Source of the DNA: Desulfotignum sp.
GTDB lineage: Bacteria; Desulfobacterota; Desulfobacteria; Desulfobacterales; Desulfobacteraceae
DNA: 37,854 nt
Assembly (NCBI GenBank): GCA_011389555.1
Contig: JAABUD010000119.1
Span: 1-37,854 of the forward strand
Direction: 5' to 3'
The position numbers and the translations under genes were made by a program. Of this stretch, positions 33,714 through 37,347 are shown piece after piece (the stretch's first letter is position 1; every line of letters begins with the position of its first letter). Under the pieces are notes generated by a model that saw nothing but the letters and a program-made list of their open reading frames with translations, did no database searches and was not told the DNA's origin.

Positions 33714-35756
33714 CTACCTGCCCTGTTTTTTTATGGCCTTTGTCAAATCCCGGGCCGTGTCAGCGGCATCTCCGGTCAAAACAATGGTTTTGGGATCGTC
33801 ATACAGGGTATTGTCCACACCGGAGTACCCGGGGTTTGTATCAAAATTGCACACCACAATGGTTTTTGCCTCATGGGCGTTGAGGATCGGCATGCCCGAG
33901 ATGGGGGTGTCTTCCACATGGATGGCCGCCGGATTCACCACATCACAGGCCCCGAACACCAGAGCCACATCGGTTTGTGAAAATTCCGGGTTTATTTCAT
34001 CCATCTCCTTGAGCTTGTCATACTCCACTTCCGCCTCGGCCAGCAGCACATTCATGTGTCCGGGCATGCGCCCGGCCACCGGATGAATGGCAAACGACAC
34101 CTCTTTTCCCGATGATTCCAGCAGGTCGGCCAGTTCTTTCACCGGAACCTGGGCCTGGGCCCGGGCCATGCCGTAGCCGGGAATGATGATGATTTTCCGG
34201 GCGGACATCAGCCGGTCAAGCGCAGCATCGATCGGGGGTGTTTCCGGCCCGCTCCCATCCCCTGATTGTTTCGGACCCGTTGACGGGGTCTCGGTCAATT
34301 CCCCGAGCAGCTGTTCCATGGTCTGTCTGGCATTTCCCAGAAGCATCAGGGTGCTGGAATTGTGATACAGGGCATTGTCCACCCCGGAATACCCGGGCTG
34401 GTCATCCAGATTGCAGCAGATCACCTGTTTGGCCTCATGGGCGTTGAGGATCGGCATGCCCGAGATGGGGGAACCGTCGGTTTCCATGGCTGCCGGATTC
34501 ACCACGTCACAGGCACCGATCACCAGGCATAGATCCGTCTGTGAAAATGACGGGTTCACCTCATCCATTTCCACAAGCTTGTCATACTCCACCCCCGCCT
34601 CGGCCAGCAGCACGTTCATGTGCCCCGGCATGCGCCCGGCCACCGGATGAATGGCAAATGACACCTCTTTTCCCAATGATTCCAGCAGGTCGGCCAGCTC
34701 TTTCACCTGGAACTGGGCCTGGGCCACTGCCATGCCATATCCCGGCACCACAATGATGGTTTTTGCGTTTTGAATCTTCTCCGCCGCGGTTTTCAATGGA
34801 TCCGATCCGGACGGCCCTGTTTCATTTTTTTTGGATTCAACTCTCGTTTCATCGATGATTTGTTCCGGTTCAGACCCTTGCAGATCGGCTGGAAACAACC
34901 TTTTTTCAGCCTTTTCGTCCCTGTTTTCATCCAGGGGTGAAACCGGTTTGTCCGGCGCCTTTTCCGGTACGAATACATGATACAAACTTCGGTTCATGGC
35001 CCGGCACATCATATGGGTGAGAATGGATCCGGAAGCGGCCACCGTGGCGCCGCAGGCGATCAGCAGCTGATTTTCGATGATCATGCCGCACAAGGCTGCC
35101 GCCAGACCGGTGGTGGCGTTCAAAAAAGAGATGAGCACCGGCATGTCCGCCCCGCCCACACGGATGGAAAACAAGATGCCGAACAGGATGGACAGGGCAA
35201 ATATGATCAGATAGACGATCAGGGCCGCATTCACCGGCAGAAAAAAAGCAACGATCATCAGCACGATCACGATCCCCAGATTGGCCTTTACCAGCCGGGT
35301 ATGATTCGCCAGGATCGTGGGGATCTGCCCCAGCAGACCGGCGAGTTTCCCGGCCGCCACCATACTGCCTGAAAACGTCAATGACCCCACGGCAAGGTTC
35401 AGAAGCCCCGATATTTCATTCAAGGTCCCCATCTGGCCCGCTCCCCGCATCAATTCCACAAAGGAAAGAAAAAACGCGGCAATACCGCCGGCACCGTTCT
35501 GAAACGCCACCATGGCGGGAATCTGAATCATGGTGATTTTCCGGGCCACCCAGACTCCGGCAATGCCGCCCACCAGAAGACAGGCCAGCACCACAGACGG
35601 GTGCATGATGCCGTTTCTGTAAATCACCAGACCCATGGCACACGCCAGGGCCGCAGCAGCGGCCAGGTTCCCGTATTTTGCCTCCGACGGCCGCCGAAAC
35701 AGCCATATCCCGACAATCAGAACACCGATCAGACAAAAATCCAGCGCCATATTCAT
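33714..35756 (-). CDS. pntB: Transhydrogenase beta subunit with duplicated domain III
   Basis: Membrane subunit of proton-translocating NAD(P) transhydrogenase, which normally moves hydride between NADH and NADP+ coupled to proton flow. It has 680 residues; typical PntB has about 460. Residues 1-260 are domain IIb, about nine helices, with VGGADMPVLISFLNATTG and MCRAMNRSLYHVF. A charged linker (262-331) leads to a first domain III (about 332-486) and, after a Pro/Ser/Gly linker (487-518), a second (about 519-677). The glycine motif is GYGMAVAQAQ in copy 1 and GYGMARAQAQ in copy 2; both have HPVAGRMPGHMNVLLAEA, GACDVVNPAA and PGYSGVDN. Where E. coli has K-R-S for the NADP 2'-phosphate, these read NLD and NFD. 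The start overlaps pntAB as ATGA. Confidence 0.92.
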   Translation of the reverse strand: MNMALDFCLIGVLIVGIWLFRRPSEAKYGNLAAAAALACAMGLVIYRNGIMHPSVVLACLLVGGIAGVWVARKITMIQIPAMVAFQNGAGGIAAFFLSFVELMRGAGQMGTLNEISGLLNLAVGSLTFSGSMVAAGKLAGLLGQIPTILANHTRLVKANLGIVIVLMIVAFFLPVNAALIVYLIIFALSILFGILFSIRVGGADMPVLISFLNATTGLAAALCGMIIENQLLIACGATVAASGSILTHMMCRAMNRSLYHVFVPEKAPDKPVSPLDENRDEKAEKRLFPADLQGSEPEQIIDETRVESKKNETGPSGSDPLKTAAEKIQNAKTIIVVPGYGMAVAQAQFQVKELADLLESLGKEVSFAIHPVAGRMPGHMNVLLAEAGVEYDKLVEMDEVNPSFSQTDLCLVIGACDVVNPAAMETDGSPISGMPILNAHEAKQVICCNLDDQPGYSGVDNALYHNSSTLMLLGNARQTMEQLLGELTETPSTGPKQSGDGSGPETPPIDAALDRLMSARKIIIIPGYGMARAQAQVPVKELADLLESSGKEVSFAIHPVAGRMPGHMNVLLAEAEVEYDKLKEMDEINPEFSQTDVALVFGACDVVNPAAIHVEDTPISGMPILNAHEAKTIVVCNFDTNPGYSGVDNTLYDDPKTIVLTGDAADTARDLTKAIKKQGR
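33765..34181 (-). repeat. Second copy of tandem domain III repeat in pntB
   Basis: Encodes residues 526-664. It aligns gap-free with 34329-34745 at an offset of 564 bases. Over a 96-base block (34049-34144 against 34613-34708) I count about six mismatches. Confidence 0.85.
34329..34745 (-). repeat. First copy of tandem domain III repeat in pntB
   Basis: Encodes residues 338-476 of PntB. Over this 139-residue core the two copies differ at about 33 positions (about 76 percent identity, hand count), with no gaps. Confidence 0.85.
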
Positions 35757-36049
35757 GGGTTATCCCTTTCCTGCTTTTTTTTGAACATGCGCAGCATCCG
35801 GTCGGTGATGGTGAATCCGCCCACCAGGTTGAACGTGACCATGATCAACGCCACGGAACCGATGAGTTGTTCAACCGGGGAGGATGGGACGGAAAATAGA
35901 ATCAGCACCCCCAGAATGGTGACGGCGGATATGGCATTGGTCATGGACATCAGCGGGGTATGCAGAAGGGTGGGAACCCGTGAAATCAGAAAATACCCCA
36001 CCACGAATGAAAAAACAAATACCCCGACCATCAAAAAAAGATTGCTCAT
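35753..36049 (-). CDS. pntAB: Transhydrogenase alpha subunit, membrane part (domain IIa)
   Basis: A 98-residue membrane protein with three helices that forms part of the proton channel with PntB. It contains LLHTPLMSMTNAISAV and ends VGGFTITDRMLRMFKKK, both diagnostic. The position often occupied by a channel His (NAIHG in one class) is Ser (NAISAV). It is a separate gene, as in the three-subunit enzymes of Rhodospirillum and Thermus, and overlaps pntB by four bases. The upstream pntAA ends 31 bases before it. Confidence 0.93.
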   Translation of the reverse strand: MSNLFLMVGVFVFSFVVGYFLISRVPTLLHTPLMSMTNAISAVTILGVLILFSVPSSPVEQLIGSVALIMVTFNLVGGFTITDRMLRMFKKKQERDNP

Positions 36050-36080: not shown

Positions 36081-37244
36081 TTACTCCGACAGACCCATGG
36101 CTTTCCGCGTCCCCTGATGAAGCAGCTCTCCCTGATGGGTCACCAGGGACTCTTTGATGATCTCATCGGTCATGTCGAATTCCGGGGTCTTGTTTTTGAA
36201 CAGATTTTCCACGAAATAGTACAGGTTGTTGGCATACAGCCATGAGGCATGTACCGGCAGAGACCCGGGAATGTTCTTGATGCCGCAGATGTAGACACCC
36301 TCGTACATCCGCTCTTTGCCCGGATCGGTCAATTCACAGTTTCCGCCCTGGTCGATGGATACATCCACGATCACGGATCCGGGCTTCATGGTTTCCACCA
36401 TTTGCCGGGTGATCAGGGTCTGGGCCACCTCGCCGGGCACCAGTGCGCTCAGAACAATGATATCGGCGTCCGCCACCAGAGGCCCCAGTGCCTGATGTTC
36501 TTTTTCCAGCCATTCCTGAGGCAGGGCTTTTGCATATCCCCCTTTTCCGATGACCAGTTCCGGCGGGGCTTCGAATCCCACCACCTTGACACCCAGGCTT
36601 TTTGCTTCATTTCGGGCATCCGGCCGGATATCCATGGCCTTGACCACCCCGCCCAGCCGTTTGCCGGTGGCAATGGCCTGAAGCCCCACCACACCGGTGC
36701 CCACCACCAGAATATTGGCCGGCTTGATCATGCCGATGGAGGTGCCGATCATGGGAATGAATTTGGGGAAATGGCCGGCTGCAATGATAATGGCCTTATA
36801 CCCGGTGATGGCACTCATGGATGTCAACGGATCCATGCGCTGGGCCCGGGATATCCGTGGAATCCCGTCCATGGTGAACGCCGTGATATGCCGTTGCTGC
36901 AGTTTTTTCACCCCCTCGTGATTGGATGGCGTGGCAGGATGAAGAAACGTGATCAGAATGGTATTTTTTTTCACCATATCGATCTCATGGATGTTGAACT
37001 GTTCATTGAACAGCGGTTCTTTCACCTTGAGAACGATATCGGATTTGTCATACAGTTCGACCGCATCCGCAGCAATGGCAGCACCGGCATTCCGGTACTG
37101 GTCATCGGGCACAAATACCCCGGCACCCGCGCTGGATTCCACCATCACCTCGAACCCGAGTTTGACAAACTTTTCAACTGTTTCCGGTAACGCAGCCACC
37201 CGGTCTTCATGGTACATGATCTCTCTGGGGATTCCGATTAACAT
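36081..37244 (-). CDS. pntAA: Transhydrogenase alpha subunit, NAD(H)-binding domain I
   Basis: Cytosolic domain I, 387 residues, which binds NAD(H) and exchanges hydride with domain III. The start is ATG 37244 (MLIGIPREIMYHEDRVA) with AAGGAG upstream; a longer frame to 37262 lacks it. The RQD loop (IPRISRAQRMD, with R130, Q135, D138) and the NAD fingerprint VVGTGVVGLQA (182-187), followed by AMDIRP (D205), are intact, so NAD(H) binding and hydride transfer look normal. SALVPGEVA and QGGNCELTDPG are further family motifs. It is the first gene of pntAA-pntAB-pntB, 112 bases after the nifJ stop; a hairpin lies between them. Confidence 0.95.
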   Translation of the reverse strand: MLIGIPREIMYHEDRVAALPETVEKFVKLGFEVMVESSAGAGVFVPDDQYRNAGAAIAADAVELYDKSDIVLKVKEPLFNEQFNIHEIDMVKKNTILITFLHPATPSNHEGVKKLQQRHITAFTMDGIPRISRAQRMDPLTSMSAITGYKAIIIAAGHFPKFIPMIGTSIGMIKPANILVVGTGVVGLQAIATGKRLGGVVKAMDIRPDARNEAKSLGVKVVGFEAPPELVIGKGGYAKALPQEWLEKEHQALGPLVADADIIVLSALVPGEVAQTLITRQMVETMKPGSVIVDVSIDQGGNCELTDPGKERMYEGVYICGIKNIPGSLPVHASWLYANNLYYFVENLFKNKTPEFDMTDEIIKESLVTHQGELLHQGTRKAMGLSE

Positions 37245-37315: not shown

Positions 37316-37347
37316 ACGGGCCGGATCTTCGTTGAGATCCGGCCCGT
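37316..37347 (-). terminator. Hairpin between nifJ and pntAA
   Basis: A perfect 13-bp stem, ACGGGCCGGATCT / AGATCCGGCCCGT, with a 6-base loop begins 10 bases after the nifJ stop. No U-tract follows on the minus strand. Termination is likely but could be partial, leaving pntAA partly dependent on nifJ transcription. Confidence 0.65.

Follow-up and report, generated by a model that had tools for sequence, protein, structure and literature searches.

A central question for transhydrogenase is how a single domain III serves hydride transfer and proton coupling by turns. A locus of Desulfotignum sp. poses it anew, with a pntB that encodes two domains III behind one membrane domain: is the doubled domain real, how far does it extend among relatives, and which nucleotide do the two copies bind? 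Natural enzymes with two, three or four domains III on longer tethers would be ready-made tests of the swivelling-domain model. The locus lies on contig JAABUD010000119.1, and the whole stretch of 37,854 nucleotides that was analysed is called the window here.

Architecture of the window PntB

Domains I, II and III are all encoded together in the window operon pntAA-pntAB-pntB (Table 1), in which the start of pntAA is likely the ATG at 37244, behind AGGAG. A sequence-only reading of this DNA had described a 680-residue PntB in which a single membrane domain is followed by two domains III. That description is borne out by Pfam PNTB, which matches the protein in two stretches, and by a genome-level PNTB search that returns 465.3 bits (model positions 10-454) and 259.7 bits (model positions 292-455) in one stop-free frame, scores that exclude a chance repeat. 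The gap-free alignment of the two domains at an offset of 188 residues holds as well, over 158 residues of which 111 (70%) are identical. The doubled domain-III architecture of the window PntB is certain. Both domains had also been called complete, which is right for the fold, the AlphaFold2 model of copy 1 having a pLDDT of 94.4 and a TM of 0.98 to the R. rubrum domain III (1pno_B), and wrong for the NADP signature, which is absent in both copies. For the whole chain AlphaFold2 predicts both domains III as folded with moderate confidence (pLDDT 78.2, pTM 0.52) and residues 266-317 and 490-504 as disordered (pLDDT <50).

Table 1. Coordinates of the transhydrogenase genes and of the parts of pntB in the window
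Feature	Position	Strand	Basis
pntB, 680 aa: membrane domain II and two domains III	33714..35756	(-)	ORF from ATG, Pfam PNTB
Domain IIb (residues 1-265)	34962..35756	(-)	S139, N222, G252, R265 (E. coli numbering)
Long linker from domain II to first domain III (residues ~266-320)	34797..34961	(-)	pLDDT, R265-P313 spacing
Domain III copy 1 (residues ~321-486)	34299..34796	(-)	PNTB match, copy alignment, AlphaFold2
N-L-D (residues 449-451) at the K-R-S position of the NADP site, copy 1	34404..34412	(-)	Alignment
Inter-copy linker (residues ~487-509)	34230..34298	(-)	Residues 490-504 pLDDT <50
Domain III copy 2 (residues ~510-677)	33726..34229	(-)	PNTB match, copy alignment, AlphaFold2
N-F-D (residues 637-639) at the K-R-S position, copy 2	33840..33848	(-)	Alignment
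pntAB (alpha-2, 98 aa; PNTB_4TM)	35753..36049	(-)	Stop overlaps pntB start as ATGA
pntAA (domain I)	36081..37244	(-)	ORF opens at TTG 37262

A second Desulfotignum MAG locus (L032) has the identical 680-residue layout at 79% identity to the window PntB. A decayed second copy is rejected by purifying selection on both copies: dN is well below dS in each, with dN/dS of about 0.05-0.19 across seven pairs of near relatives and about 0.12-0.26 when the window is compared with its five nearest. In another Desulfotignum (L080, L031) pntB is disrupted by several stops, and in L030 PntB breaks off where domain III begins (361 aa), the next ORF being transposase-like by eye. Upstream in the window, the interval between the end of PFOR and pntAA holds a perfect 12-bp inverted repeat (37317-37346) that is terminator-like and without a T run. 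A functional link between PFOR and pntAA was rejected because, of 20 loci compared, L032 alone shares the PFOR cluster with the window.

The N-x-D motif and the spread of tandem domains

PMC9529548 places the KRS motif, positions 424-426, in the NADPH site and assigns the choice of NADP(H) over NAD(H) to loops D and E. K424 and R425 are present in 22/22 representatives of ordinary domains III (18 remaining after a 70% cut of 144 single domains, and 4 from tandem enzymes). The window copies are without KRS and read NLD and NFD, and both keep the GYG, HPVAGRMPGHM and D392 motifs. Domains with this N-x-D signature, here called N-type, have N424 in 92/92 cases and D426 in 91/92 (variant domains, the membrane-less L123 left out), with L, F, Y, M, I or W at position 425. 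In one- and two-copy enzymes Asn391 is replaced by Cys in 79/81 N-type domains; the three- and four-copy enzymes retain it in 11/11. The earlier interpretation was sound in treating the tandem as real and functionally interesting; its assumption that both domains bind NADP(H) is put in question by the absence of KRS from both copies. Judged from the alignments, a switch from NADP(H) to NAD(H) in the N-type domain III is likely.

A recount of 207 distinct PntB frames and fragments (loci up to L218) gives 146 single and 2 double KR types. N types comprise 34 double, 1 triple, 2 fourfold and 16 single, the last including the two membrane-less ORFs of L123 and L124; the second motif is unreadable in 2 further N types, and the motif was unread in 4 fragments. 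None of the 207 mixes KR and N motifs within one PntB.

A search of homologues for double domains III and their taxonomic range, as the sequence-only reading had proposed, finds pairs widespread in the family and the order. In the window's family 34/86 genomes have a PntB match. Two domains III in one frame are carried by 25 of these 34 (the second cut off in G042 and G055) and a single one by three (G046, G076 and G008, the domains of the first two being identical); the other six matches are truncated, broken or weak (G021, G052, G059, G065, G070, G071). Across the order 54/291 genomes match, with N-type pairs outside the window's family in f7, f23, f25, f30, f38, f55, f60 and f71 and single N-type domains III in f5 and f43, and one genome (G127) encodes both an ordinary and an N-type enzyme. 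The phylum sample has matches in 30/345 genomes, all 30 of which were read, and six are N-type (G000, G477, G492, G605, G646, G663). In the phylum of an Anaerolineales locus 108/301 genomes matched, and one of the 30 read is N-type (G691); in that of a Phycisphaerae locus 121/246 matched, and five of the 30 read are N-type (G690, G1010, G1031, G1098, G1235). The remaining 78 matches (scores up to 223.3 bits) and 91 matches (up to 219.1), respectively, are classed as ordinary by score alone, the lowest best N-type score being 237 and the highest ordinary one 233 in profile searches of the read genes. The earlier statement that no described example was known stands: among the matches listed, titles and abstract openings hold no description of a doubled-domain-III or N-type PntB, a search that leaves most subscription papers outside and does not prove absence.

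Larger arrays occur in family f112, with four domains III in G492 and G605 (1029 and 1030 aa), three in G663 and G1253, one in G1303 and at least two plus part of a third in G1309; four further matches there are ordinary single PntB. Tandem domains III exist with ordinary NADP motifs too. In family f128, 9/30 genomes matched, eight with two domains III and one with a single domain, and the tandem domains read KRS or KRG wherever the motif is readable. G526 (f123) resembles these enzymes, and the nine ordinary tandem enzymes, coming from two related families, count as about one event.

In a tree of 88 domains III, which omits 11 N-type rows (long, truncated or near-duplicate) and all but 6 of the ordinary ones, the N-type clade has a support of 100/98 (ultrafast bootstrap/SH-aLRT). 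Within the tree, 30 first copies form one clade (99/84), 29 second copies another together with the single domains of L005 and L027 (97/94), and the 11 domains of three- and four-copy enzymes a third (98/80); an earlier 115-row tree agrees with lower support (SH-aLRT 85 and 90). A separate N-type clade is very likely real. Because first and second copies fall into separate supported clades, the tree traces the order-wide pairs to one old duplication; L005 and L027 have lost the first copy, or had it collapsed in assembly. Tandem domains III arose at least two further times, as three to four copies in f112 and as the ordinary pair in f128. The window copies agree at 350/465 DNA positions (75%), and one 31-codon block (34578-34670 against 34014-34106) at 87/93. 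Since this block is near-identical and the dS between the window copies, 0.57, is the lowest (0.9-3.7 in all other computable two-copy N-type genes), the pattern suggests local gene conversion between them.

Conserved partners, tethers and a neighbouring gene

Outside domain III, the catalytic residues and most key channel residues are conserved. In domain I, residues R127, Q132, D135, D202 and R204 are invariant in 40/40 N-type and 59 ordinary sequences (R. rubrum numbering for the hydride-transfer loop), and position 138 of that loop is T in 32 and S in 8 N-type sequences, domain I of the three- and four-copy enzymes lying outside the loci compared. Domain I also retains its Rossmann aspartate, and a switch of domain I to NADP is rejected on the retention of D202 and R204 in all 40. 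Domain II has S139, N222, G252 and R265 in 48/48 N-type enzymes and D213 in 47/48. PMC5026163 describes the Asp213-Arg265 pair and, for domain I, a catalytic set of Arg, Gln, Asp and Ser. Both known channel histidines are missing in the window, where beta-91 is Asn and alpha-2 42 is Ser, and from 20/48 N-type enzymes with the window counted; as an N-type hallmark this was rejected, since 55/135 ordinary enzymes are also without both.

For the tether between domains II and III, PMC5742237 gives a linker of 14-19 residues in all homologues. We measured the R265-P313 spacing, which is 45-53 in 132/132 distinct ordinary single-domain sequences and 62-69 in 9/9 ordinary tandem ones. N-type enzymes have spacings of 51-85 (single, n=15), 52-112 (tandem, n=28) and 57-64 (three to four copies, n=5), the window PntB standing at 82. 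Within the N-type clade the spacing is independent of copy number, with single enzymes reaching 85 and tandem ones as low as 52. The linker is rich in Ala and Pro in ordinary tandem and in three- and four-copy enzymes (medians 0.45-0.54), and not in N-type tandem enzymes (0.20), the median of ordinary single ones being 0.22.

A conserved gene of about 145 aa (DPFGNLxDWG...NWRLREE...YYDARILA) stands directly before pntAA or slightly further upstream in 12/20 N-type loci (L110-L117, L121, L122, L127, L128; for example L112:13479-13910). Three copies have no Pfam match, and three no NCBIfam match. The gene occurs in 14/22 N-type genomes against 13/269 others (Fisher p 1.7e-11), a count that takes G021, with its truncated pntB, as N-type and leaves out three weak matches; in G178 it sits on a separate contig. 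Three domain-III-like ORFs that have no membrane part are likewise neighbours of this gene, in L123, L124 and, in degenerate form, L125. Those at L123:5058-5861 and L124:5062-5985 are free-standing, with C-N-Q-D and GACD, and their surroundings include ORFs that resemble, by eye, a histidine kinase and a sigma-54 regulator.

Nucleotide choice, mechanism and known systems

Taking these sequence comparisons together, we consider it probable that the N-type enzymes are a transhydrogenase clade of their own, with domains III that bind NAD(H) in place of NADP(H) and are used as alternating tethered arms. The nucleotide on domain III would likely be NAD(H), or else some dinucleotide that carries no 2'-phosphate, and the N and D of N-x-D would contact the free hydroxyls of the ribose in the manner of the sirtuin N-x-E. 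By analogy with repeated lipoyl domains it is plausible that two domains III act as tethered arms that alternate at the single domain I for hydride transfer and at domain II for proton coupling; the arms would take turns, and therefore one would exchange its nucleotide while the other is engaged. The idea of several domains III serving one protomer fits the separate conservation of the copies, the three or more expansions (up to four copies) and the longer stretch between domains II and III in ordinary tandem as against ordinary single-domain enzymes.

With NAD(H) at both sites, hydride exchange between free NAD(H) molecules would yield no net chemical work. An enzyme using NAD(H) at both sites would then have to act as a valve for protons under the control of NADH/NAD+, or else to give a partner the hydride from NADH that domain III binds tightly. 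We tentatively entertain, with some doubt, such a clade, in which the pmf would act on NADH held by one to four swinging domains III, with a strongly reducing hydride delivered to the partner or proton flow set by the valve; this would be a machine derived from transhydrogenase that does not produce NADPH.

With no obvious net reaction when NAD(H) is on both sides, another 2'-phosphate contact, invisible in the sequence, may exist. The N-type enzyme would then be an ordinary NADP(H) transhydrogenase in which other residues read the 2'-phosphate and the second domain III raises local concentration. This reading gives sensible net chemistry and agrees with the conservation of domain I and most channel residues, and it can point to clade-specific lysines (K338 in 31/32 first copies, K443 in 29/33 second copies) and to H415 (29/32 and 29/33, respectively). 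We nevertheless judge it unlikely, as in 91/92 domains the phosphate site has exchanged two positive residues and carries an Asp, no new basic residue among the flagged positions is common to all N-type groups, and the three- and four-copy enzymes keep D415 yet have N-Y-D.

Less likely still is a division of labour in which one domain III does the catalysis and its partner senses nucleotide, gating the enzyme or sending a signal to the conserved neighbouring gene and sigma-54 regulators. The conserved positions distinct to each copy, and the occurrence of the 145-aa gene beside both N-type operons and membrane-less domain-III-like ORFs, would suit a sensor. Both copies, however, keep the same invariant motifs under similar constraint, the further copies of three- and four-copy enzymes share 88-95% identity with the first, which does not look like a division into catalyst and sensor, and the window genome gives no match to the 145-aa gene. 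The window genome, with 317 contigs and 5.48% contamination, is fragmented and probably a MAG, which would suit a false tandem from assembly or binning. Such an artefact can practically be dismissed: the same layout occurs in 25 family genomes including one single-contig genome (G020), the tandem pntB of G058 sits on a contig of 5,589,073 bases, and the copy-specific clades span nine families.

If N-type domains III do use NAD(H), annotations and models that treat these enzymes as NADPH producers in sulfate reducers may need revision. An excerpt of PMC4969296 reports pntAB genes in D. autotrophicum and does not remark on their form; they would be an example, provided that the gene is N-type.

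Sirtuins (Sir2, NAD-dependent) have a related fold at the nucleotide end, the only part compared, and their N-x-E aligns with N-x-D. The N-x-E of sirtuins holds the ribose hydroxyls of NAD+. On the SIRT2 ribose contact itself the literature search yielded no more than an inhibitor-docking passage in one paper. An N-type profile matches a Sir2 profile with a probability of 77.6 and E 1.9e-5, with N424 aligned to the N and D426 to the E of the sirtuin motif, and the ordinary domain III profile does so with 10.6 and 0.0029; these are pairwise values with no database behind them, and the Sir2 profile comprises 21/25 loci of related genomes, selected on two further sirtuin motifs. The fourfold PntB is hit by NCBIfam Sir2 models, with E 7.8e-8 summed over its four repeats, and more strongly by thiamine-diphosphate enzymes (1.3e-12). 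An ordinary tandem PntB has a weak match to one Sir2 model (0.011), and the window PntB itself gives no Sir2 hit. Among the structural neighbours SIRT2 comes no higher than rank 24 (E 2.1e-3), and a thiamine enzyme ranks above it. The link to sirtuins is therefore a modest one, and we do not propose the N-type PntB as a member of that family. Flavin in place of nicotinamide, considered because N-x-D resembles ETF-alpha, was rejected on a non-significant profile match (probability 0.39) to 18 ETF-alpha sequences chosen partly for that motif.

Repeated lipoyl domains take turns in dehydrogenase complexes. The E2 components with several lipoyl domains resemble the tandem PntB in having repeated mobile carrier domains, some on Ala-Pro-rich linkers; the carrier in PntB would be a bound nucleotide, not a lipoyl arm, and the likeness is one of analogy. 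With the E. coli PntAB, Thermus and mitochondrial transhydrogenases the window enzyme shares the three-domain plan, the domain I loop, most channel residues and the domain III fold. It differs from them in having two domains III per protomer instead of one, N-x-D in place of KRS, GACD in place of GAND, and a domain II-III spacing of 82 as against 45-53.
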